Assembly: GCA_010672825.2 (NCBI GenBank)
Contig: JAAHFU020000002.1
Location: 1,252,001-1,316,000 of the forward strand
Length of the DNA stretch: 64,000 nucleotides
Direction: 5' to 3'
DNA from: Leptolyngbya sp. SIO1E4
GTDB taxonomy: Bacteria; Cyanobacteriota; Cyanobacteriia; Phormidesmidales; Phormidesmidaceae
Shown here: piece after piece, positions 20,431 through 29,925 of the stretch
Numbering within the stretch: the stretch's first letter is position 1
Layout of the letters: every line of letters begins with the position of its first letter
The notes under the pieces: model-generated
What the model saw: the letters and a program-made list of their open reading frames with translations, nothing else
What the model was told of the DNA's origin: nothing
Databases searched by the model: none
Position numbers and translations under genes: made by a program

Positions 20431-21435
20431 TTATCCATTGTGAGTAGGAGACCTTGAATGGGGAGACGTGGGATGGGTAAAGCCTGTTAATGTATCTTGG
20501 GTAAAATCCCAAAAAACATGGGTTTCAGTTTGAGTTTTAAGGGTCAAGATGCGATCGCCGGTCACCTGACCAATCGGTTCACACACCAGGTTTTCTTGAC
20601 GAAATAGTGCCTGTAGCGAGTTTAGATTCTCTGACGCCACGCTGAGCAAAAAGCCATAGCTGGGAAAGCTCAACAGCCATTTTTCTAAGGGGACTCCGTC
20701 AGGACGAGGAATCGTGTCAATGGTTAACACGGCCCCACAGCCGGAGGTTTCTAACAGCATCAGGGTGGTGCCAACAATGCCCCCCATGCTGACATCCTTA
20801 CCGGCTTTACATAAGCCCATTGCCGCAACCTGAGGCAGCAGGTCTAGCTGACGCCGTAGCCTGGCCGGATCGGCCAGGGTCGCTGCATCCCAAAATGGAT
20901 AGTCTGGGTGCGATCGCCCGTCGAGATTAGTCACCAGCACCAGGGCATCCCCCGGCTGGGCTTCAAAGCTGGTGATCAGGTGCTGCGCCCGTCCTAAAAT
21001 GGCTACGGATAGGGCCGCGTAAGGGCTATGACAGTTGGTGTGCCCTCCAACAATCGGCACGTTGAAGGTTTTAGAGGCCGCTATCATGCCCTGCCATAGG
21101 GCCTCGGCTGCCACCTCAGACGGGCTCCACAGAGCATCCACCACCGCGATCGGGCGTCCGCCCATGGCATAAATATCGCTAACGTTCACCAGTACCGCAC
21201 ACCAACCGGCAAACCAGGGTTCCGCCTCCACTAAAGGGGGCCATAAGCCCTCGGCTGCCAACAGTAAATAGCCGTCTCCCTGAGGGATGGCGGCACAGTC
21301 ATCTCCCAGCAGAATCGGGGCGTTTGTATCCCGGTGGGGAACGTAGCGCCCCAAATGAGCTGCGGCTGTCTGGATATCTTGCTTGTGGAGAATCCCCAGC
21401 GCCGGACGCAACGCTGTCACCAGATCCGCCAACAT
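20431..21435 (-). CDS. Sll0787-family AIR synthase-like protein (Nit1C cluster)
   Basis: A 334-residue PurM/HypE-fold protein, which usually means an ATP-dependent enzyme that activates an amide, formyl or thiocarboxylate-type substrate. The metal/ATP loop GDDCAAIP is near residue 43, followed by the VNVSDIYAMGGRP motif and the CKAGKDVSMGGIVG phosphate loop. It is the last gene of the five-gene Nit1C operon. Its ATG at 21435 overlaps the stop of the acetyltransferase gene (TGATG), which implies translational coupling. The exact reaction is not established. Confidence 0.92.
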   Translation of the reverse strand: MLADLVTALRPALGILHKQDIQTAAAHLGRYVPHRDTNAPILLGDDCAAIPQGDGYLLLAAEGLWPPLVEAEPWFAGWCAVLVNVSDIYAMGGRPIAVVDALWSPSEVAAEALWQGMIAASKTFNVPIVGGHTNCHSPYAALSVAILGRAQHLITSFEAQPGDALVLVTNLDGRSHPDYPFWDAATLADPARLRRQLDLLPQVAAMGLCKAGKDVSMGGIVGTTLMLLETSGCGAVLTIDTIPRPDGVPLEKWLLSFPSYGFLLSVASENLNSLQALFRQENLVCEPIGQVTGDRILTLKTQTETHVFWDFTQDTLTGFTHPTSPHSRSPTHNG

Positions 21436-21953
21436 CAAGACACCTTGCGGATTCCTTCAAACAAGACAGGGCGCCCCTCATTCCCTGGCGGATAAAAAGC
21501 CAGATCCGCTTCCATCAAGTGATGGGGGCGATCGCACACGGAAATTTCCTGAATTGAGTCCCAATGCTGCCGTCGGAAGAAGCGCACGTTTTGCAGCTGT
21601 ACGGTGGCGAGAAAGCGATCGCAGCCCCAGCCATTAGCCGTCGTGACTGCCTTGTGAATCAACCCTTTACCAATGCGACCCACCCGCCGATAGTCTGGAT
21701 GAACTCCTAGCCGTCCCCCGTACCATAGACGAGAGTGGTCTTCATAAATGCGCACAACCCCGACCACTCGCTTACCGGCAATCACATCATTTTCCACTGC
21801 GATGATGGGGTAAGCGATGTCGTCAATCTCATCCTCGTCATGCCCAGCAAACAGCCCCTGCTCGTCACAAAAGATCGTCTGCCGTAGCCGAAAATAGGCC
21901 TGCACATCCTGGGGCGATCGCGCCAATTCAAAGGTGTAGCGTTTCAATGACAT
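21435..21953 (-). CDS. MSMEG_0567/Sll0786-family GNAT acetyltransferase (Nit1C cluster)
   Basis: A 172-residue GCN5-type N-acyltransferase. The acetyl-CoA pyrophosphate loop is YRRVGRIGKGLIHKA, preceded by the beta-strand VVGVVRIYEDHSRLWYGGRLGVHP. ATG 21953 (MSLKRYTFELARSPQDVQ) is the family start; an upstream in-frame GTG-type start would overlap the radical SAM gene. The 3' end overlaps the next gene by one base. The acceptor is unknown but is presumably an intermediate of the cluster's nitrile/cyanide-linked pathway. Confidence 0.92.
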   Translation of the reverse strand: MSLKRYTFELARSPQDVQAYFRLRQTIFCDEQGLFAGHDEDEIDDIAYPIIAVENDVIAGKRVVGVVRIYEDHSRLWYGGRLGVHPDYRRVGRIGKGLIHKAVTTANGWGCDRFLATVQLQNVRFFRRQHWDSIQEISVCDRPHHLMEADLAFYPPGNEGRPVLFEGIRKVS

Positions 21954-21984
21954 GGGATACCTCGTAACTCCTAATCCCGACTTC

Positions 21985-23070
21985 CTACTTCTCAAAGGTT
22001 GACAATGCTGAACAGGCGCCACACTTGGCACACCCGGCATTGATATCTTCGGCAGACATGCCCGCTGCTTTTAATTGGGCACCCACTTTTTGATAGAGGG
22101 CAAACATGAAGTCTGTACTGGGGGCAGGGTGATTGGCCAAGGGGGTTTCTGTAATCGGCACAAAGGGCACCACGAAGGGATAAACCCCTAAGGCAATGAG
22201 GCGATCGCAGGCGGCTATCAGGGTTTCTAGACTGTCGCCCAATCCGGCCAGCAGGTAAGTGCTGACTTGTCCCCAGCCGAAGACCTTGACGGCTGCCTCA
22301 AAGGCTTTGAAATAGTGGGACAGGGGAACTTCAGCTTTGCCGGGCATAATCCGCGCTCGCACTGCGGGATCTACCGCCTCTAGGTGCATTCCCAGGCTGT
22401 CGATGCCAGCGGCCTGCATGCGCTCAAACCAGGTGAAGTCATCGGGGGGTTCACACTGGGCCTGAATGGGCAAATTCACCCGTGCTTTGATCGCTTTGGC
22501 ACAGTCGGTGAGGTAAGCGGCCCCACGATCGCTCGTGTTAGGGGTGCCTGTGGTCATCACCATATGCTTGACGCCATCCAACCGCACCGCGGCTTCGGCG
22601 ACTTCGGCTAGCTGGTCTGGGGTTTTGCGGGCAATGGTGCGATCGGCCTCTAAGGATTTTTCGATGGCGCAAAACTGGCAGGCGGTGGCCTCATCCCGAT
22701 ATCGCATGCAGGTTTGCTGCACGGTGGTTGCCAGCACATCATGGCTGTGGAGGAGAGCGATTTTCCAGTAGGGAATGCCATCGGCAGTGGTCAGGCTGTA
22801 GAACTGGGGCTGCTGAGGAAAGGCGATCGGGGCCACATCATGACTTTCGTGAACCAGCTTGCCCTGGTTGGGGCCAGCGGTCTGTACGGAGTAAGGTGAC
22901 TGGCTGGCAGTGCCTGTATAAATGGGCACCATGACTGTGGTGCCGCCAACGGTGACCGCTTTGTGGTCAGAGGGGCCAGCCCCACCTTTGCGGCCAGCGG
23001 CCCCGACGGTCGGGTCTATCAGCTTGAGCCCGCGAGTCTGGAGATCGGTAATAAGACGTTGTTTGTTCAT
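21985..23070 (-). CDS. MSMEG_0568-family radical SAM enzyme (Nit1C cluster)
   Basis: A 361-residue radical SAM protein. The iron-sulfur cysteines are C121, C131 and C134, spaced CX9CX2C rather than the usual CX3CX2C. The SAM-binding TTGTPNTSDRG and GQVSTYLLAGLGDS segments follow, as in biotin-synthase-like members. A second cysteine cluster at the C-terminus (GCAKCGACS, about 348-356) could hold an auxiliary cluster. ATG 23070, 20 nt after the nitrilase stop. It would generate a 5'-deoxyadenosyl radical; the substrate is not known. Confidence 0.93.
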   Translation of the reverse strand: MNKQRLITDLQTRGLKLIDPTVGAAGRKGGAGPSDHKAVTVGGTTVMVPIYTGTASQSPYSVQTAGPNQGKLVHESHDVAPIAFPQQPQFYSLTTADGIPYWKIALLHSHDVLATTVQQTCMRYRDEATACQFCAIEKSLEADRTIARKTPDQLAEVAEAAVRLDGVKHMVMTTGTPNTSDRGAAYLTDCAKAIKARVNLPIQAQCEPPDDFTWFERMQAAGIDSLGMHLEAVDPAVRARIMPGKAEVPLSHYFKAFEAAVKVFGWGQVSTYLLAGLGDSLETLIAACDRLIALGVYPFVVPFVPITETPLANHPAPSTDFMFALYQKVGAQLKAAGMSAEDINAGCAKCGACSALSTFEK

Positions 23071-23090
23071 GGGCGATCTAAAAGCGCTCC

Positions 23091-24149
23091 CTACGACGGG
23101 GGAGAGGCAGTGGGTTCTGGGGTGGGCAGGGTAATCAAGGTTGGCGTTTCAGGAGCAGTGGCTGCTGATGCTTGAGAATTCGCAGAAGTCGGTGTTTCAG
23201 GCGTCGCCAGGTCTGGTGCCATCGGCTGCATGACGGACCAAGCGGTGCGATTAACCTGGAGCTGCAGTAAATCGGGGCGTGCGTAATGACCCACCGAGTC
23301 CATCATGCGCTTGCGCTTGGTAATCAACGAAAAATCAAGATCGGCGATCGCCATCCCTTCGCCCTCTGTAATCGGATCACAGAGCGGCACCCCTTCTGGA
23401 CTAATAATGGCGGTATAGCAGCCGCCACTGAGGACTTTCTGGAGTGTTTCATCGGGGGTGATTTGCCCTTTTTGCTCCGCTGTGAGCCAGCCCGTGGCAT
23501 TCACCACAAAGCAGCCAGACTCTAGAGCGTGGTGGCGCATGGTGACTTCAATTTGGTCTCCAAAAATCTGCCCCACCATGGAGCCAGGAAACTGGCCACA
23601 GTGAATTTGTTCGTGCTGAGCCATCAGGGCAAACCGAGCCAGGGGATTGTAGTGCTCCCAACAGGCCAGGGATCCGAGTTGCCCCGCAGCCGTCTCGAGC
23701 ACGGTTAATCCAGCGCCATCCCCCTGGCCCCACACCATGCGTTCGTGGTAAGTCGGGGTGATTTTGCGGCGCTTCAGCAGCAGCGTGCCGTCCGCATCAA
23801 AGATGAGCTGAGTGTTATAGAGGGAACCCCCATCCCGCTCGTTGACGCCAAGCACCACTACCATGCTGTAAGAGCGGGCCGCTCGACTGATGGCATCCGT
23901 CACGGGCCCTGGCACGGTGACGGCCTCTTCGTACAATTGCATGTGGGCTTTCCCCATCAGCACCGGGGGCTGCACAAAAGAAAAATAAGGATAGTAAGGG
24001 ATGACTGTTTCTGGGAAGACGATGAGCTGCACGTCTTGTTGAGCAGCGGTGGCGATCGCCTCCAGCACTTTCTCTGTTGTGCCCTCTCGGCTGTGGAGCA
24101 CTGGGCTCAGCTGGACTGCAGCCGCGCGAACCGTTTTGGAATAATCCAT
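23091..24149 (-). CDS. Nit1-type nitrilase (Nit1C cluster)
   Basis: A 352-residue carbon-nitrogen hydrolase that converts nitriles to carboxylic acid and ammonia. The catalytic triad is complete: E47 (VFPETV), K129 (KRRKITPT) and C163 (LACWEHYNP). The C-terminal 45 residues are Pro/Thr/Ala-rich ([11 protein letters not shown]) and longer than the family core, probably a disordered tail. ATG 24149 is used in place of an upstream TTG at 24170. This is the Synechocystis Sll0784 counterpart and defines the Nit1C cluster, which has been linked to cyanide assimilation in Pseudomonas and to nitrogen starvation in Synechocystis. Confidence 0.95.
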
Positions 24150-24244
24150 GACGAAGGTAGGAAAAAGCAATCAATAAAGTGAGCTAGGGGCGCATAGTCG
24201 GGACTTGGGAACACACACAGACCCCCAGCTCAACTGGCGGCAAT

Positions 24245-24727
24245 TTACATCGTCCAGGTATCAAGAACGAAGGCACCTTCTTTACGATGCACCAGGATAA
24301 TATCCAACACATCTAGTGGATTAATGGGCGTAATCCCTGGGATTAAAGAGGGTTCGCCATGGCCATAAAGGGCTTGTAAGGCAAAGCGACAGGCATAAAC
24401 TTTGCCCCCTTCTTCCATCACTTTCACAAGCTGATTGTTCATCGCTAAATGGCCTGGGAAAGCTTCATCTCCAAGCTTGGGAAACCCTCGCTGAACGCCA
24501 AGGGTTACCCCAGGCCCATAGAGCAGTACCGAGGTTTCAAACCCCTTACGAATCAGGCGAGTGGCCTGCAATAAGTTCACTAATCCAATGGAACCTTCAA
24601 AGGCAACGGTATGGAAGGCCACGAGGGCTTTTTCCCCAGGTTCGGCCTGCACATCAGGGAATACTTTTTCTTCGTAATCAACAAAAAAGTCACCCGCTTG
24701 GTGAGCCGGAGTAGTTACTTGAGGCAT
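24245..24727 (-). CDS. MSMEG_0572/Sll0783-family nitrogen starvation response protein (Nit1C cluster)
   Basis: A 160-residue DsrE-like-fold protein of the family induced in nitrogen-starved Synechocystis (Sll0783), where loss impairs polyhydroxybutyrate accumulation. Sequence signs are [43 protein letters not shown], a typical DsrE strand-helix-strand, and [13 protein letters not shown]. It is the first gene of the minus-strand operon. Its ATG at 24727 lies about 58 nt below a TAGGGT -10 box and an exact NtcA site, so nitrogen control of the whole operon follows from the sequence. Confidence 0.95.
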
Positions 24728-24784
24728 GGGTTCAATTCCTAAGAAAACTTCAGAGACAGTGGTGTCTAAAGCGTGTTAGTCAGC

Positions 24785-24826
24785 ACCCTAAGGGTCTCTA
24801 ACGTCGCCGCTTGTATCAGGGTTTAC
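24785..24826 (-). promoter_or_regulatory. NtcA-activated promoter of the Nit1C operon
   Basis: An NtcA box GTATCAGGGTTTAC (GTA-N8-TAC) lies at 24813-24826. Read on the minus strand, exactly 22 nt separate it from TAGGGT at 24790-24785, which fits the TAN3T -10 consensus. This is the canonical class II NtcA architecture (GTA-N8-TAC, N22, TAN3T). The operon's first start codon is 58 nt further down. No -35 hexamer is needed in such promoters. Confidence 0.85.
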
Positions 24827-25026
24827 AGAATGGCAAGACCTAGTTCAAAAGACAGGCGATCGCGGTTTTTCTCGATATTTTGCTTAGAAACAATGAGTCT
24901 CCCTATTACTTTAGATAGGGTTACTCAGTGAAATTCAAGAAAGGTTAGGGGAAATGGGTAAATAAAAGCCCTTATCTATACCCTGAGAAGTACACCCCTA
25001 TCAGTATCTATAGATCCTGAGATTTC

Positions 25027-25068
25027 GTAGCGTAATTTACAAGACGCAGAGTTTTCACCTTTTATCGT
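25027..25068 (+). promoter_or_regulatory. NtcA-activated promoter of the divergent flavoprotein gene
   Basis: A second NtcA box GTAGCGTAATTTAC at 25027-25040, followed after exactly 22 nt by TATCGT at 25063-25068 (TAN3T). It points toward the flavin oxidoreductase gene, whose ATG is 78 nt downstream. Together with the minus-strand promoter it makes both halves of the cluster respond to the same nitrogen signal. Confidence 0.85.
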
Positions 25069-25146
25069 GCCCTTAACAGGTTTGATGGTGCTTGAATTTG
25101 CAGGAAGCCATCAATTTTCTGTATTTTTTGTCACAAGATTGTGCCC

Positions 25147-26424
25147 ATGAAAACTCACTATTCCGTAGTCATTGTTGGCGGAGGGCAGGCGGGGCTTTCG
25201 ATGAGCTATTGCCTCAAGCAGCGAAACATCGAGCACATTATTTTTGAGAAGTATCAGATTGCCCATTCTTGGCAAGAAAAGCGCTGGGACTCTTTTTGTC
25301 TGGTAACGCCCAATTGGCAATGTCAACTCCCGGGATACCCCTATCAAGGGGCAGAGCCAGGAGGATTTATGGGCAAAGCAGACATTGTTCAATATATTCG
25401 AGACTACGCCCAGAGCTTTGACCCGCCGGTTCAAGAGGGGGTTGAAGTAACACGTGTATGTCAGGGGCAGGGCGATCGCTTCGAAATAACTACCACTGTA
25501 GGAGACTTCACGGCTAACCAAATCGTGATTGCTACGGGCGGATACCATACCCCCCGCATTCCTCGCGTTGCAGAGCGATTATCCCCGAACGTTCTGCAGA
25601 TTCATTCCTCCGAATATCGCAGGCCCGAGCAGTTGCCCGCTGGCGAGGTTTTGGTTGTTGGTACCGGGCAGTCAGGTTGTCAGATTGCAGAAGATTTACA
25701 TCTGGCGGGGCGGCGCGTCCACCTGTGCGTCGGGGGCGCTCCCCGCTCTCCCCGGCGCTATCGCGGCAAAGATGTGGTGGACTGGCTAGACCAGATGGGC
25801 TACTACGATATGCCCATCGACGAACATCCTCAGAAAGAAACCATTCGCCACCGCACCAACCACTACGTCACCGGACGAGATGGCGGTCGAGAAATTGACC
25901 TACGCAAATTCGCCACCGAAGGCATGCAGCTCTATGGGCGGCTGAAAGATATCCAGGGCGATCGCCTGATTTTCAACAGCAATTTGAAGCAGAACCTAGA
26001 TGCCGCAGATGCCGTTGCCGAAAGCATTAAAGGCACCATCGACAAGTTCATTGATAAAAATAATCTGGATGCTCCTGAAGCCTCCCCCTACCAGCCCATG
26101 TGGGCACCAGATCAACCCATGCTCGAGATGAACTATAAAACCGCCAATATCGCTGCTGTTATCTGGTCTACTGGCTTTGAGGCTAATTTTGCCTGGGCAG
26201 AAGTCCCTGTCTTTGATGGCAAGGGTTATCCCAGCCACGATCGCGGCGTTACCCCAGTCAAAGGCTTTTATTTCCTCGGTTTACCCTGGCTGCACACCTG
26301 GGGATCAGGACGATTCTCCGGCATCGCACGAGACGCCCTGTACCTGGCCGATCAGATTGTAGCTAAACGCAAGATTCAATCGCCGTTGTTGGAGTTGATT
26401 AATGAAATGGCATTGGGGTCTTAG
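25147..26424 (+). CDS. MSMEG_0569-family flavin-dependent oxidoreductase (Nit1C cluster)
   Basis: A 425-residue two-dinucleotide-binding monooxygenase-like flavoprotein. The FAD motif is VIVGGGQAGLSMSYCL (about 6-21), the NADPH motif is VVGTGQSGCQIAEDL near 173-187, and the ATG motif (IVIATGGYHTPRIP) lies between them. It belongs to the Nit1C set and is the only member on the plus strand, with its own NtcA promoter. ATG 25147 is preferred over a GTG two codons earlier. The oxygenated substrate is unknown; cyanide- or nitrile-related chemistry is proposed for the cluster. Confidence 0.93.
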   Translation: MKTHYSVVIVGGGQAGLSMSYCLKQRNIEHIIFEKYQIAHSWQEKRWDSFCLVTPNWQCQLPGYPYQGAEPGGFMGKADIVQYIRDYAQSFDPPVQEGVEVTRVCQGQGDRFEITTTVGDFTANQIVIATGGYHTPRIPRVAERLSPNVLQIHSSEYRRPEQLPAGEVLVVGTGQSGCQIAEDLHLAGRRVHLCVGGAPRSPRRYRGKDVVDWLDQMGYYDMPIDEHPQKETIRHRTNHYVTGRDGGREIDLRKFATEGMQLYGRLKDIQGDRLIFNSNLKQNLDAADAVAESIKGTIDKFIDKNNLDAPEASPYQPMWAPDQPMLEMNYKTANIAAVIWSTGFEANFAWAEVPVFDGKGYPSHDRGVTPVKGFYFLGLPWLHTWGSGRFSGIARDALYLADQIVAKRKIQSPLLELINEMALGS

Positions 26425-26756: not shown

Positions 26757-28172
26757 CTAAGCTTGGCGGCAAAGAGGCAGTTTAACCTTAAAGTGTGTCC
26801 CCATATTGGGCTGGCTTTCGACGCTTAGCTGTCCTCCACAGTAGAGCAGCAGCTGTTGCACAATGGTGAGTCCTAGGCCAGCTCCTTCCTCTTGGCCCGG
26901 TTGCCGTCCTCGGTAAAAGTGCTCGAAGATGTGCGGCAGTTCATTAGGGGGAATGCCGATGCCGGTGTCTTTGACGTTGAGGACGAGGTTGTCTCCATCT
27001 CCCTCGTTTTGTACTGTGACCCACACTTCCCCACCGGCTTCGGTGTAACGAATGCTGTTGTTGAGGAGGTGAATCACAATTTGGCGCACCCAGCTCTCGG
27101 GGCAACAGACCAGGGGCAGGGTATTTGGCACGGTATAGGCCAGACGAATCCCTTTCTCTTGAGCGATGGGCTGGTAGGTGCTAACCACCCCTGGAACCAC
27201 ATCAAACAGCTTTACCGGATCGGGGGTTGCTTTGGTAAAGCTCTGCTCTAACTGAAGCAGATCGAGAACCCCGTTGATCAGGCTGCTCTGGCGATCGCAC
27301 TCTCGACTAATCATGTCTAAATAGCGCTGGCGTTGGGCTGGCTTCAGCTGCAGTGACGCCAGGAGTGGCAAAGCCGTTTTGATAGTGGACAGTGGGCTGC
27401 GGAGCTCTTGGCCGACGGTGCTGAGAAAGTCATCTTTTAAGCGCAGGGTATTCAGCAGGGCATCATTCTGCGTAGACAGGGTAGATGCTTCTATTGCCTG
27501 GCGTCGGTACATCCGAGCCTGTTGCCGCAAGCGTTCCTGTTGCTTGCTCTGCTGCATCAAAATGGCCTCAATTAGAGCCGGGTCAGACTGGTTAGGAACT
27601 TGCAGGCGATCGCCCCAGCTAGAGGCTAAGGTCTGCAATGCCGTTTCCCCTGGATGCTCGGTCAGGCTGGCCTGAACCATTTGATGCAGCTCCCCTAATT
27701 TTTGTTGAATCAGCAAAGGCTGCAGGGTAATGCTGAGGTTGACTTTCGGTTGGCTATCGACCTCTTCAGATGGCGGTGCCTCCGGATCTGTCCCAGAGTC
27801 TTCAACGGTGGCAGGGGCTTCTTCGCGATGACCCAACACCATCATGCCAACGGCCTCTGAAAGCACAATCAGGCTATATTCCCCCTGCATTGAATAGGCA
27901 GCGGGAACAGGCACAGCGGTAAACCAGTCTGTTGTGCCCAAAGAACGCCGACTCAATAGGTAGATGTCGGGCTTGGGGGTGACCGCCTGACTATAGCGTT
28001 TTAGGTCTTCGAGCCAGTTGCTTCCGTTGGGAAGCTTAGCCAGAATGGTGGCAGTATGACGCAACTGAATCAGGGCGTCTACTACGGTTTCCAAATTAGA
28101 TTTGAACCCCCTAGGAGAAACCTGTATAGGGCTTGAAATCGCGGGTGATCCCTGCTCTTTCCACTGAACCAT
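26757..28172 (-). CDS. Histidine-kinase-like protein lacking the phosphoacceptor histidine
   Basis: A 471-residue soluble protein. The N-terminal about 120 residues form an unrecognised, probably sensory, domain, followed by an acidic linker and a coiled region (about 200-245). The dimerisation helix reads DDFLSTVGQELRSPLSTIK, with Gln255 where HisKA proteins have the phosphorylated His (SHELR-type motif); the codon is CAA. The HATPase domain is intact: HLLNNSIRYTEAGG, DTGIGIPP, FEHFYRG and GAGLGLTIV. It can probably bind ATP but not autophosphorylate in the normal way. It may act by partner binding or heterodimerisation. No response regulator is adjacent. ATG 28172. Confidence 0.8.
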   Translation of the reverse strand: MVQWKEQGSPAISSPIQVSPRGFKSNLETVVDALIQLRHTATILAKLPNGSNWLEDLKRYSQAVTPKPDIYLLSRRSLGTTDWFTAVPVPAAYSMQGEYSLIVLSEAVGMMVLGHREEAPATVEDSGTDPEAPPSEEVDSQPKVNLSITLQPLLIQQKLGELHQMVQASLTEHPGETALQTLASSWGDRLQVPNQSDPALIEAILMQQSKQQERLRQQARMYRRQAIEASTLSTQNDALLNTLRLKDDFLSTVGQELRSPLSTIKTALPLLASLQLKPAQRQRYLDMISRECDRQSSLINGVLDLLQLEQSFTKATPDPVKLFDVVPGVVSTYQPIAQEKGIRLAYTVPNTLPLVCCPESWVRQIVIHLLNNSIRYTEAGGEVWVTVQNEGDGDNLVLNVKDTGIGIPPNELPHIFEHFYRGRQPGQEEGAGLGLTIVQQLLLYCGGQLSVESQPNMGTHFKVKLPLCRQA

Positions 28173-29178
28173 AACAACAGTGGCCTGTCATGATGAATGG
28201 GCTCCAAGTGAGTCTCTGAACGCACCCGCCCCCTTTTAGAAGGCTGTGCAAATGGTGAGAGGCTCAAACTTTCTCCAAGCCTATCTCGCTTGCTTGAAGT
28301 CAAATCATTTACTTTTCGTGAATTTAAGTAATATTTAGTATTGATTCCCTGTCTCGATCCCCAATATCGCTGTCGATAAAAGAAACAGGACTTATATATT
28401 GGCTCCCTTAGCTCCTCACTTCTAGGGGATTTTGGATTAGGGGATTTTGAATCTGGTTCTCCCGGAATTGGGGCAAGGGGGGCGAAACTGACTCAACCAC
28501 GAGGCCCTACCTTTTGCCACATCGCATACGGAGACAAGCAGCAAAGAGAATTTAACTTCCACACCCCCCTAGCCTATGGCTGATTCATTCACCAGAGAAA
28601 ATACTTCAAACGGCTATTATTGCCGTTAACCTGCTGCTGTGCCTCGAATATCCCGACCCAGATCAAGCTGAAACCATCTGCTCTATCAGCCTTGCCAACC
28701 CCCTACTTCCGCGAGGTCCAGGACGGCGGAACGTCCTGGTCGTAGGCCGAAGGACTTGCGAAGCTAGGGGTCTGGGGGCAAGCGAAATGCCCCCAGGTAA
28801 CCCCCCTTAACCAGACCTGACTCTTCGCCTTACCGCCTTCACCAGAAGTGCCATCAGCCTTCCTTTCTAACGTCAACGCGATTTCCTTCTAGCAGAGAAT
28901 CATCCCTACCCCTAGCCTGATGCGGTTATTGTTGACATTCCAAACGATGCCAATTGCTTTGCCATTGCTTTACAGCGACTTTGCGTTGTCTTGTCCCAGC
29001 CTTCTTAGCTCCTTAAGATGTATTGAAAATTACATGAATTCACGGAAAAACCGGTGCCACTCCTCCTCAAGTCCTGCATTCTGTGGGTAAGCACTCTGCA
29101 GCTCCAAGGCTAGTTGGCCTTAAGGGTCATGCAGAAGGACGATTGTGTGACTGTCAAACTGAGAAGCGATTGCACCCT
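28173..29178. other. 1-kb intergenic region with repeat C-like and hairpin sequences
   Basis: No credible gene. Positions 28386-28490 resemble the C-rich palindromic repeat (AGGGGATTTTGGATTAGGGG, GGAATTGGGGCAAGG). Positions 28718-28796 hold two strong hairpins, annotated separately. The last 100 bp should contain the PEP-CTERM gene promoter, not resolved here. An open extension of the PEP-CTERM frame to 29083 is not supported by its composition. Confidence 0.6.
28718..28796. ncRNA. Possible structured RNA or palindromic repeat (two hairpins)
   Basis: Stem 1 is CCAGGACG/CGTCCTGG at 28718-28739 with a 6-nt GCGGAA loop. Stem 2 is CTGGGGGCA/TGCCCCCAG at 28772-28796 with a 7-nt loop, and between them runs a 32-nt purine-rich spacer. 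No flanking ORF, promoter or T-tract defines a transcript. It could equally be a palindromic extragenic repeat. Low confidence as an RNA gene. Confidence 0.3.
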
Positions 29179-29925
29179 ATGAATAAGACTTGGATATCTG
29201 TATCGGTGGCGGCGGTAGCTGTGGGTCTGATTGGGAGCCAAGCAGATACCGCAGCGGCTGCCACCTTAAGGGTGGTTGATGTGAACGACACCTACACCCA
29301 TGGCGTATTTAGTGGCCCTGACGGCACTTTTGAAAAACTAGTGCCCGTCAGCCCTGGAACCTATGGTCTAGAGGCCCGGGGAGGGCGCCAAGGTGCCCGT
29401 GACTGGGAAATTGGCGTCGGTACCCAGACCAGCCATGCTGGCACCTTTAGCGAAAACAAATACTTCGATGATGACTGGGGTGATGGCTCTACCCTGCATG
29501 ACCTGATGATGACTTGGATGCCTGGGGAAAAGGTGCAAGTCACTATCGGCGACACCACTGTCTCCTACGAAGCGGACTGGCAAGTTGGCAACGGCATTGA
29601 AATCTTGGCTAAGCGCAGCGCCCTCTTCACCCTGACAGAATTAGACGGCATGGCCTTTAATGAGACCGTTGGCGAGATTGGCAGTAACGCCGGGCATACG
29701 CCACTCTTTTTGGCGGGAGATAGCCTGCTGGATGGCTGGATTCTCAAAGGGCAAATTGCCATGACCGCTGGGGGTGGGTCTCGCAATACGGTGATGATTA
29801 CCCCAGGAACCTTCACGCCGTCAGATACCGCATCTGTGCCTGAGCCAACTTCTTTGCTAGGGCTAATGGCCCTTGGGGCCCTGGCGACAGGTGGACGGCT
29901 GAAAGCCATCCTGAATCGGTCTTAA
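29179..29925 (+). CDS. PEP-CTERM sorting-domain exported protein
   Basis: A 248-residue secreted protein. A signal peptide (about 1-27, ending TAAAATL) leads to a beta-rich domain of unknown function. It ends in a PEP-CTERM signal: VPEPTS, a hydrophobic helix LLGLMALGALATGG, then a basic tail RLKAILNRS. Such proteins are normally recognised by exosortase and anchored or released at the cell surface in polymer-producing bacteria; no exosortase gene is in the window. ATG 29179 is selected because it gives a proper signal peptide. A strong hairpin follows 27 nt after the stop. Confidence 0.88.
   Translation: MNKTWISVSVAAVAVGLIGSQADTAAAATLRVVDVNDTYTHGVFSGPDGTFEKLVPVSPGTYGLEARGGRQGARDWEIGVGTQTSHAGTFSENKYFDDDWGDGSTLHDLMMTWMPGEKVQVTIGDTTVSYEADWQVGNGIEILAKRSALFTLTELDGMAFNETVGEIGSNAGHTPLFLAGDSLLDGWILKGQIAMTAGGGSRNTVMITPGTFTPSDTASVPEPTSLLGLMALGALATGGRLKAILNRS

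Follow-up and report, generated by a model that had tools for sequence, protein, structure and literature searches.

Palindromic operators beside NtcA-type promoters of the divergent Nit1C cluster in Leptolyngbya sp. SIO1E4, and a candidate GAF-LuxR regulator

The 419-nt intergenic region between the divergent genes nitB and nitH of Leptolyngbya sp. SIO1E4 contains two NtcA-type promoters, each preceded at a fixed distance by a palindromic operator, and a further palindrome is located between them. We consider it likely, with a probability of roughly 0.7, that NtcA and a nit-specific regulator of the GAF-LuxR type act together at this two-promoter switch of the Nit1C cluster, an assessment derived from sequence comparison. 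NtcA control of Nit1C was already expected; the operator set and the candidate regulator were not found in the open-licence literature searched.

The Nit1C genes and their NtcA-type promoters

The window, as the whole analysed stretch of 64,000 nt is called here, contains six Nit1C families contiguously at 20431-26424, all of them above the NCBIfam cut-offs:

20431..21438, minus strand: nitF, sll0787 family AIR synthase-like protein (TIGR04049, 466.2 bits, cut-off 321.3)
21435..22040, minus strand: nitE, MSMEG_0567/Sll0786 family N-acetyltransferase (GNAT) (TIGR04045, 236.7 bits, cut-off 68.45)
21985..23070, minus strand: nitD, MSMEG_0568 family radical SAM protein (TIGR04043, 612.2 bits, cut-off 303.7)
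23091..24149, minus strand: nitC, Nit6803-family nitrilase (TIGR04048, 580.9 bits, cut-off 502.6)
24245..24727, minus strand: nitB, MSMEG_0572/Sll0783 family nitrogen starvation response protein (TIGR04044, 286.9 bits, cut-off 109.85)
25147..26424, plus strand: nitH, MSMEG_0569 family flavin-dependent oxidoreductase (TIGR04046, 678.3 bits, cut-off 498.35)

These matches to nitB-F and nitH agree with the initial annotation of this DNA, which had named a nitrilase, a radical SAM protein, an acetyltransferase, a PurM-like protein and a flavoprotein. The ORF of nitC opens at TTG 24170, with an ATG at 24149; the true start of nitE is probably inside its ORF, the family match beginning at residue 34; and nitH starts at ATG 25147, GTG 25141 being also possible. 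The gene families are the same as in the Nit1C relatives nitABCDEFGH of Pseudomonas, sll0783-ssl1464 of Synechocystis and nitHBCDEFG of picocyanobacteria. In contrast to those clusters, nitH of the window is divergent with a promoter of its own, and the glycosyltransferase gene nitG (C2:1242463-1243581) lies together with an adjoining MSMEG_0570 gene outside the cluster, about 33 kb from nitB.

Several side observations concern these genes and their surroundings. The nitG/MSMEG_0570 pair (G000:C2:1242463-1244000; L196:2440-3992) adjoins a NifX-like gene, which scored 105.5 bits and thus below the cut-off of 112. The Nit6803 profile matches residues 12-311 of the 359 residues of the nitC nitrilase, and beyond this match the protein continues for 48 C-terminal residues, among which Pro, Thr, Ser and Ala are abundant (window 23091-23237, minus strand). 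The radical SAM protein encoded by nitD (21985-23070, minus strand) has the cysteine cluster C-X9-C-X2-C; the usual radical SAM cluster is C-X3-C-X2-C. Just past nitH, a histidine kinase with an N-terminal DICT domain is encoded at 26757-28172 (minus strand), and the protein encoded at 29083-29925 (plus strand) carries the C-terminal signature VPEPTSLLGLMALGALATGGRLKAILNRS, which we take to be PEP-CTERM-like.

The promoter elements in the nitB/nitH intergenic region are the following:

24785..24790, minus strand: TAGGGT, -10 box on the nitB side, transcription predicted to start near 24778
24826..24813, minus strand: NtcA-type site GTAAACCCTGATAC on the nitB side, GTAN8TAC, 22 nt to TAGGGT
25027-25040, plus strand: NtcA-type site GTAGCGTAATTTAC on the nitH side, GTAN8TAC, 22 nt to TATCGT
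25063-25068, plus strand: TATCGT, -10 box on the nitH side, transcription predicted to start near 25075

GTA-N8-TAC, exactly 22 nt and a TAN3T box had been described for both divergent transcripts in the initial annotation, and this arrangement is indeed present at the boxes TAGGGT and TATCGT; the spelling GTATCAGGGTTTAC used there gives the plus-strand letters of the minus-strand site GTAAACCCTGATAC on the nitB side. Both sides have the form of a class-II NtcA promoter, with TAN3T about 22 nt downstream of GTAN8TAC. For NtcA-activated class-II promoters such as those of urtA, nirA and glnA, a GTAN8TAC site at about -41.5 together with TAN3T is described in PMC3898017, and examples of N22 spacing at NtcA promoters are given in PMC9430850. 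The predicted leaders comprise 51 nt ahead of nitB and 72 nt ahead of nitH, and the NtcA gene is present in the genome (TIGR03697, 385.4 bits, cut-off 244.95).

Chance matches to a short consensus could in principle account for the promoter pair, as the bare GTAN8TAC motif is frequent and occurs at 8 places in the window, equal to 16 readings over the two strands. Only two of these readings have a TAN3T box 20-24 nt downstream; both are the nit promoters, and they are the only such arrangements on either strand of the window. The mean expectation per window in 200 Markov-2 shuffles was 0.375 for a spacing of 20-24 nt and 0.095 for exactly 22 nt, and at least one such promoter per strand, any relative orientation of the two being accepted, appeared in a fraction of 6.5e-4 of 20,000 Markov-1 shuffles of the 419-nt intergenic region. 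Far stronger evidence for the NtcA promoters than these shuffles is their conservation across divergent loci. A nitB above the cut-off was found in 54 of the 95 genomes searched, the window's own genome counted, and all 54 loci were used. The divergent set consists of 42 distinct nitB/nitH intergenic regions including that of the window. Both sides carry an exact promoter in 33 of them and a promoter with at most one mismatch in 40; the two exceptions (L043 and L052) both lack the promoter on the nitB side. With the TAN3T box nearest to 22 nt chosen where several were possible, the 22-nt spacing was found in 39 of 40 nitB promoters and 37 of 42 nitH promoters of the divergent loci. Exact promoters numbered 71 in 17.6 kb of intergenic DNA versus 0 in the remaining 136.8 kb of the same loci. 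This both-sided conservation and the lack of exact promoters in the flanks decisively oppose a chance origin of the pair, which was rejected and to which we assign a practically negligible probability, in line with the earlier statement that the pair was unlikely to have arisen at random.

The contig-search set comprised 80 loci, 67 of them cyanobacterial, and in 65 of the latter a promoter within one mismatch precedes nitB or nitH. Upstream of nitB, 46 of the 67 loci have an exact promoter, 10 a promoter with one mismatch and 11 none; for nitH the numbers are 43 and 8, with 16 loci not assessable. L094 and L112 are the only cyanobacterial loci without either promoter, and nitH is outside their stretch. 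In nine of the 11 loci without a nitB site, nitH and nitB stand in tandem and the site precedes nitH, and the unlinked nitH genes of L143 and L165 retain their own NtcA promoter. The unlinked and tandem cases therefore indicate that each transcription unit, as a rule, has its own NtcA site wherever the genes moved. No NtcA promoter within one mismatch was detected in the proteobacterial upstream regions (13 of nitB and five of nitH). NtcA control of Nit1C is very likely and was largely to be expected from Synechocystis, where sll0783 is under direct NtcA control.

Palindromic operators at fixed spacing

The promoters were aligned on the NtcA site alone, with nothing upstream selected. The alignment revealed a palindrome with a CT-N12-AG core and a TA centre at columns -30 to -12 before GTAN8TAC, designated O1. 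Its key positions are conserved (C 95%, T 96%, A 95%, G 88%) over divergent, tandem and unlinked arrangements, and an exact CT-N12-AG stands at the fixed place in 129 of 150 distinct promoters. An initial symmetric form of O1 proved too strict and was replaced by the better form given by the column counts. In the window, three operators were located:

24838..24856, minus strand: operator O1-B, CCTGTCTTTTGAACTAGGT, centred 28 bp upstream of the middle of the NtcA site, matrix rank 2
24902..24920, no strand assigned: central operator O2, CCTATTACTTTAGATAGGG, a more symmetric palindrome, matrix rank 3
24997..25015, plus strand: operator O1-H, CCTATCAGTATCTATAGAT, centred 28 bp upstream of the middle of the NtcA site, matrix rank 1

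The ranks refer to a scan of about 128,000 positions of the window with a weight matrix derived from 52 promoters whose loci are non-divergent (tandem, or with a lone nit gene in the stretch), including a few promoters from the window's own family. The other 14 readings of the GTAN8TAC places in the window all had operator scores below 0. At the fixed place, 90 of 98 divergent promoters reached a score of at least 5, compared with none of the 98 when the place was moved to any one of seven other offsets. Genomes G105, G215 and G363, which were outside the training set, have the operator at both promoters with scores of 16.0-22.1. The operator is weak at the fixed place in G145 (9.1 and 6.9), where the regulator described below is linked to nitH; in G203, where the regulator is likewise linked to nitH, the operator-like palindrome stands outside the fixed place. 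In the loci of these two genomes (L221 of G145 and L217 of G203), the best operator-like palindrome precedes the NtcA site by a greater distance than usual.

Measured from centre to centre, the chain NtcA-O1-O2-O1-NtcA of the window has distances of 28, 63, 95 and 28 bp. At 10.5 bp per turn, O2 is 6.0 helical turns away from O1-B and 9.05 turns from O1-H. The best extra palindrome of the form CCTRTC-N6-GAYAGG had at least 11 of 12 matches in 29 of the 42 divergent intergenic regions versus 3 of 1050 shuffles; only with this threshold does O2 stand out in divergent loci, as shuffles reach 315 of 1050 at 9 of 12 matches. Of the 40 divergent intergenic regions with a measurable distance, 33 have O2 centred 62-65 bp from the operator on the nitB side. 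Among the non-divergent promoters, 36 of 52 have an O2 with at least 10 of 12 matches (nitB tandem 12 of 16, nitB alone 15 of 15, nitH tandem 7 of 19, nitH alone 2 of 2), and in 27 of these 36 the distance is 61-67 bp; the remaining nine distances are 41, 42, 52, 53, 53, 77, 84, 85 and 156 bp. Distance classes are apparent near 42, 52, 63-65 and 85 bp, and Rayleigh tests on distinct distances yielded p values of 0.018, 0.016 and 0.008; kinship is ignored in these tests, as it is in the shuffle and Fisher tests.

The specificity of the combination was assessed with R1, a sequence-only composite profile that was made from 72 promoters with 22-nt spacing and spans the operator, the NtcA site and the -10 box. 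In the organism's own 8.2-Mb genome only the two nit promoters were strong matches (E 1.2e-8 and 1.6e-8), followed by matches with E values of 1.64, 3.45 and 5.26. Those of 1.64 and 5.26 are located upstream of glnA. This gene is a known kind of NtcA target, and its copy in this genome has an NtcA promoter without operator (operator score -27.6), on account of which the operator was rejected as a general part of NtcA promoters. Upstream of nitG there is no R1 match, and no NtcA site with TAN3T within 500 nt. In the 95 genomes, of which only the best candidates per genome were scored and weak sites may escape, all 101 matches with E at or below 3e-4 fall within 1 kb of nitB or nitH. They belong to 52 genomes, all nitB-positive; the nitB-positive genomes without such a match are G079 (E 0.0014) and G086 (nothing at nit). 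Most weaker matches begin after the operator columns, and those that cover them in G007, G008, G042, G065 and G073 have E values of 0.002-0.05, which is chance level over 95 genomes. Judged by strong matches in these 95 genomes, operator plus NtcA site is a mark of nit promoters only.

The candidate GAF-LuxR regulator

A Pfam scan of 108 of the 195 neighbouring ORFs gave GerE and GAF as the commonest domains, with seven members each. BLAST clustering of the flanking ORFs was discarded as it returned mostly antisense frames; one of its groups was the regulator. The regulator is a GAF-LuxR protein of roughly 360-530 aa whose gene adjoins nit genes in many cyanobacterial loci, upstream of nitB (L183), upstream of nitH (L179, L180) or between nitH and nitF (L177), and beside an unlinked nitH in L188. 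Leptolyngbya sp. SIO1E4 encodes a regulator of 381 aa at G000:C2:961041-962174, 0.3 Mb from nitB. A common GAF core, two invariant cysteines and an HTH are present in 18 aligned regulators. Three regulators matched the GerE HTH (PF00196, E 5e-19 to 1.3e-17), and in the same three Pfam yielded no receiver domain at E at or below 0.001 and no autoinducer-binding domain, a GAF domain being found instead. An AlphaFold model of the regulator had a mean pLDDT of 82.7 and a pTM of 0.43, and the PDB matches of its second domain were mainly GAF and response-regulator folds.

The 16-bp symmetric CT-N12-AG corresponds to the form bound by dimeric GerE/LuxR-type proteins, as in the lux/las box and the 7-2-7 site of NarL. 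GerE (PDB 1fse), VraR and NarL (1je8) were matched by the regulator profile in the PDB and share with the regulator the GerE-type HTH; the putative operator of the regulator has the length and symmetry of theirs. Unlike NarL and LuxR types, the regulator has a sensor part of a GAF domain and a middle region. The palindromic operators are most likely bound by the GAF-LuxR regulator because its gene adjoins nit genes in many loci and co-occurs with nitB, and because operators are missing where the regulator is missing. Against this assignment count the unlinked position of the regulator gene in Leptolyngbya sp. SIO1E4 and the presence of a paralogue there.

Regulator presence was defined as a match with E at or below 1e-90, the contig-edge fragments of G039 and G047 being left out. 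By this definition it occurs in 49 of the 54 nitB-positive and 5 of the 41 nitB-negative genomes (Fisher p 2.6e-15, kinship ignored). In a phylum sample of 292 genomes, which partly overlaps the set of 95 and in which the best five regulator and best 16 promoter candidates were scored per genome, the regulator was detected in 11 genomes, all among the 21 with nitB (Fisher p 1.3e-14). The ten nitB-positive genomes without regulator comprise nine small genomes of 1.6-3.7 Mb (f2, loci L207-L215) and G241, in which nitB has an in-frame stop. The nine f2 cyanobacteria have neither the regulator nor an operator in their nit upstream regions, and an NtcA site within one mismatch followed by TAN3T was found in 0 of 9 nitB and 1 of 9 nitH upstream regions. 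Likewise, the nitB-positive G086 has no regulator and no operator. R1 matches with E at or below 0.01 are present at nit in 10 of the 11 regulator genomes of the phylum sample, G203 being the exception, and are lacking there in all nine f2 genomes. A composite promoter occurs where the regulator was not detected in G016, G018 and G023, drafts that are 83%, 98% and 91% complete, and in G047 with the regulator seen only as a contig-edge fragment. Regulator-type proteins also occur in five nitB-negative genomes, namely G010 (gene broken), G017, G022 (paralogue type), G035 and G066, and the stretches surrounding these genes contain no nit genes.

Within 300 nt upstream of the regulator gene, an exact GTAN8TAC was found in 21 of 30 distinct upstream regions, with about 2 expected, and 14 of these sites lie between -68 and -88. 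Since TAN3T follows at the usual spacing in one case only, these common sites suggest possible NtcA control of the regulator gene. The genome of Leptolyngbya sp. SIO1E4 also encodes a GAF-LuxR paralogue of 491 aa (C1:248899-250296; L224:1343-2818), with counterparts of similar score in G002, G022, G032 and G033. As G022 lacks nitB, the targets of the paralogue probably differ.

Models of nit control

The initial annotation had predicted that the nit genes switch on together under nitrogen starvation, with NtcA as the switch. The NtcA gene and the two class-II promoters are well supported, and induction by nitrogen starvation agrees with the parallel in Synechocystis. This reading is incomplete, as each promoter also has a nit-specific operator at fixed spacing; this operator and the co-occurring GAF-LuxR regulator imply that NtcA alone probably does not set nit expression.

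If NtcA and the GAF-LuxR regulator act together, the 419-bp region would form a compact switch with two promoters that governs the Nit1C nitrile/cyanide cluster. NtcA near -41.5 would be the class-II activator that reports nitrogen shortage, and a GAF-LuxR dimer at O1, at about -69.5, would contact NtcA or the polymerase. Lying on the same helical face, O2 would probably assist the regulator at O1, and a single O2 in a divergent locus could serve both promoters. Bound at O2 and O1, the regulator would help NtcA to recruit RNA polymerase. From the observed sites, spacing, conservation, nit-promoter specificity, and regulator linkage and co-occurrence we infer binding, activation rather than repression, and an AND logic that requires both nitrogen shortage, reported by NtcA, and a nit-specific signal, for which the GAF protein would be the sensor. 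A more elaborate version is tentative and, taken with all its parts, rather doubtful. It combines a helically phased enhancer (O2-63 bp-O1-28 bp-NtcA) and the GAF-LuxR sensor with a feed-forward loop, in which NtcA would also act upstream of the regulator gene in most cases, and with the sensing of cyanide, a nitrile or a cluster product by the GAF protein with its two invariant cysteines. If this phased-enhancer reading is true, the pathway would open only when the cell is both nitrogen-starved and exposed to the substrate.

The palindromes might be bound by a different factor, either a co-activator of the LysR type, NtcB for example, or the GAF-LuxR paralogue, with the nit-adjacent protein otherwise employed. 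The operator fits the LuxR type by form only, NtcB is the LysR partner of NtcA at nitrate-assimilation promoters, and the paralogue exists in the same genome. Nevertheless, this is unlikely: an NtcB site should recur at nitrate genes, whereas strong matches to operator and NtcA site were confined to nit promoters in the 95 genomes, the regulator and operators are jointly missing in the nitB-positive f2 genomes and G086, and few genomes have the paralogue type, among them G022, which lacks nitB. Improbable, too, is a GAF-LuxR repressor that shuts both promoters by looping via O1, O2 and O1 until the signal arrives, with NtcA activating after release. O1 is located upstream of the NtcA site and not over the -10 box or the start, and the constant 28 bp between O1 and NtcA would favour contact with NtcA or the polymerase, although several operators at near-integral helical spacing, such as the 63 and 95 bp of the window, would suit looping. 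That NtcA alone runs both promoters and the palindromes are structural or vestigial seems very improbable. Its sites and spacing are canonical, and the Synechocystis homologues track nitrogen status (PMC10094980, PMC3901256), but the operator columns are kept across all arrangements of the genes, and glnA of the same genome has its NtcA promoter without them.

Joint action of NtcA and the candidate GAF-LuxR regulator would resemble the NtcA/NtcB nitrate promoters, where a global and a pathway-specific regulator meet at one promoter. It differs from them in that the candidate partner is a GAF-LuxR and not a LysR protein, and in that strong composite matches do not occur elsewhere in the 95 genomes searched. 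Compared with canonical class-II NtcA promoters, the window adds nit-specific palindromes at fixed spacing. For the Pseudomonas Nit1C cluster, PMC11049912 describes a sigma-54-dependent regulator, NitA, whereas the window has NtcA and the GAF-LuxR candidate. Responses to cyanide, ammonium or nitrogen starvation are reported for Nit1C relatives (PMC11049912, PMC9716671, PMC10119275, PMC10094980), and the use of nitriles or cyanide as nitrogen source, with which the initial annotation had connected the cluster, is the subject of work in Pseudomonas (PMC11049912). The Synechocystis sll0783-ssl1464 operon is described as induced by nitrogen starvation (PMC3901256), and both the sll0783 operon and sll0782 as ammonium-repressed (PMC10094980). 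Sll0782 itself is named an HTH protein in PMC5318462, where a knockout is mentioned, and an ammonium-repressed kinase/regulator in PMC10094980; its being the orthologue of the regulator is a guess from locus numbering. A search of the open-licence literature, with subscription papers outside its range, found no Nit1C-specific regulator or operator set in cyanobacteria.

Nit1C is a widespread cluster whose actual substrate in cyanobacteria is not settled. A sensor of its own, together with an operator that is easy to recognise, would offer a direct handle on what Nit1C responds to. The system would exemplify the gating of a global nitrogen activator by a partner that is specific to one pathway and sits at an exact helical distance, and also a partner that, together with its sites, is absent from small-genome relatives which retain the enzymes.
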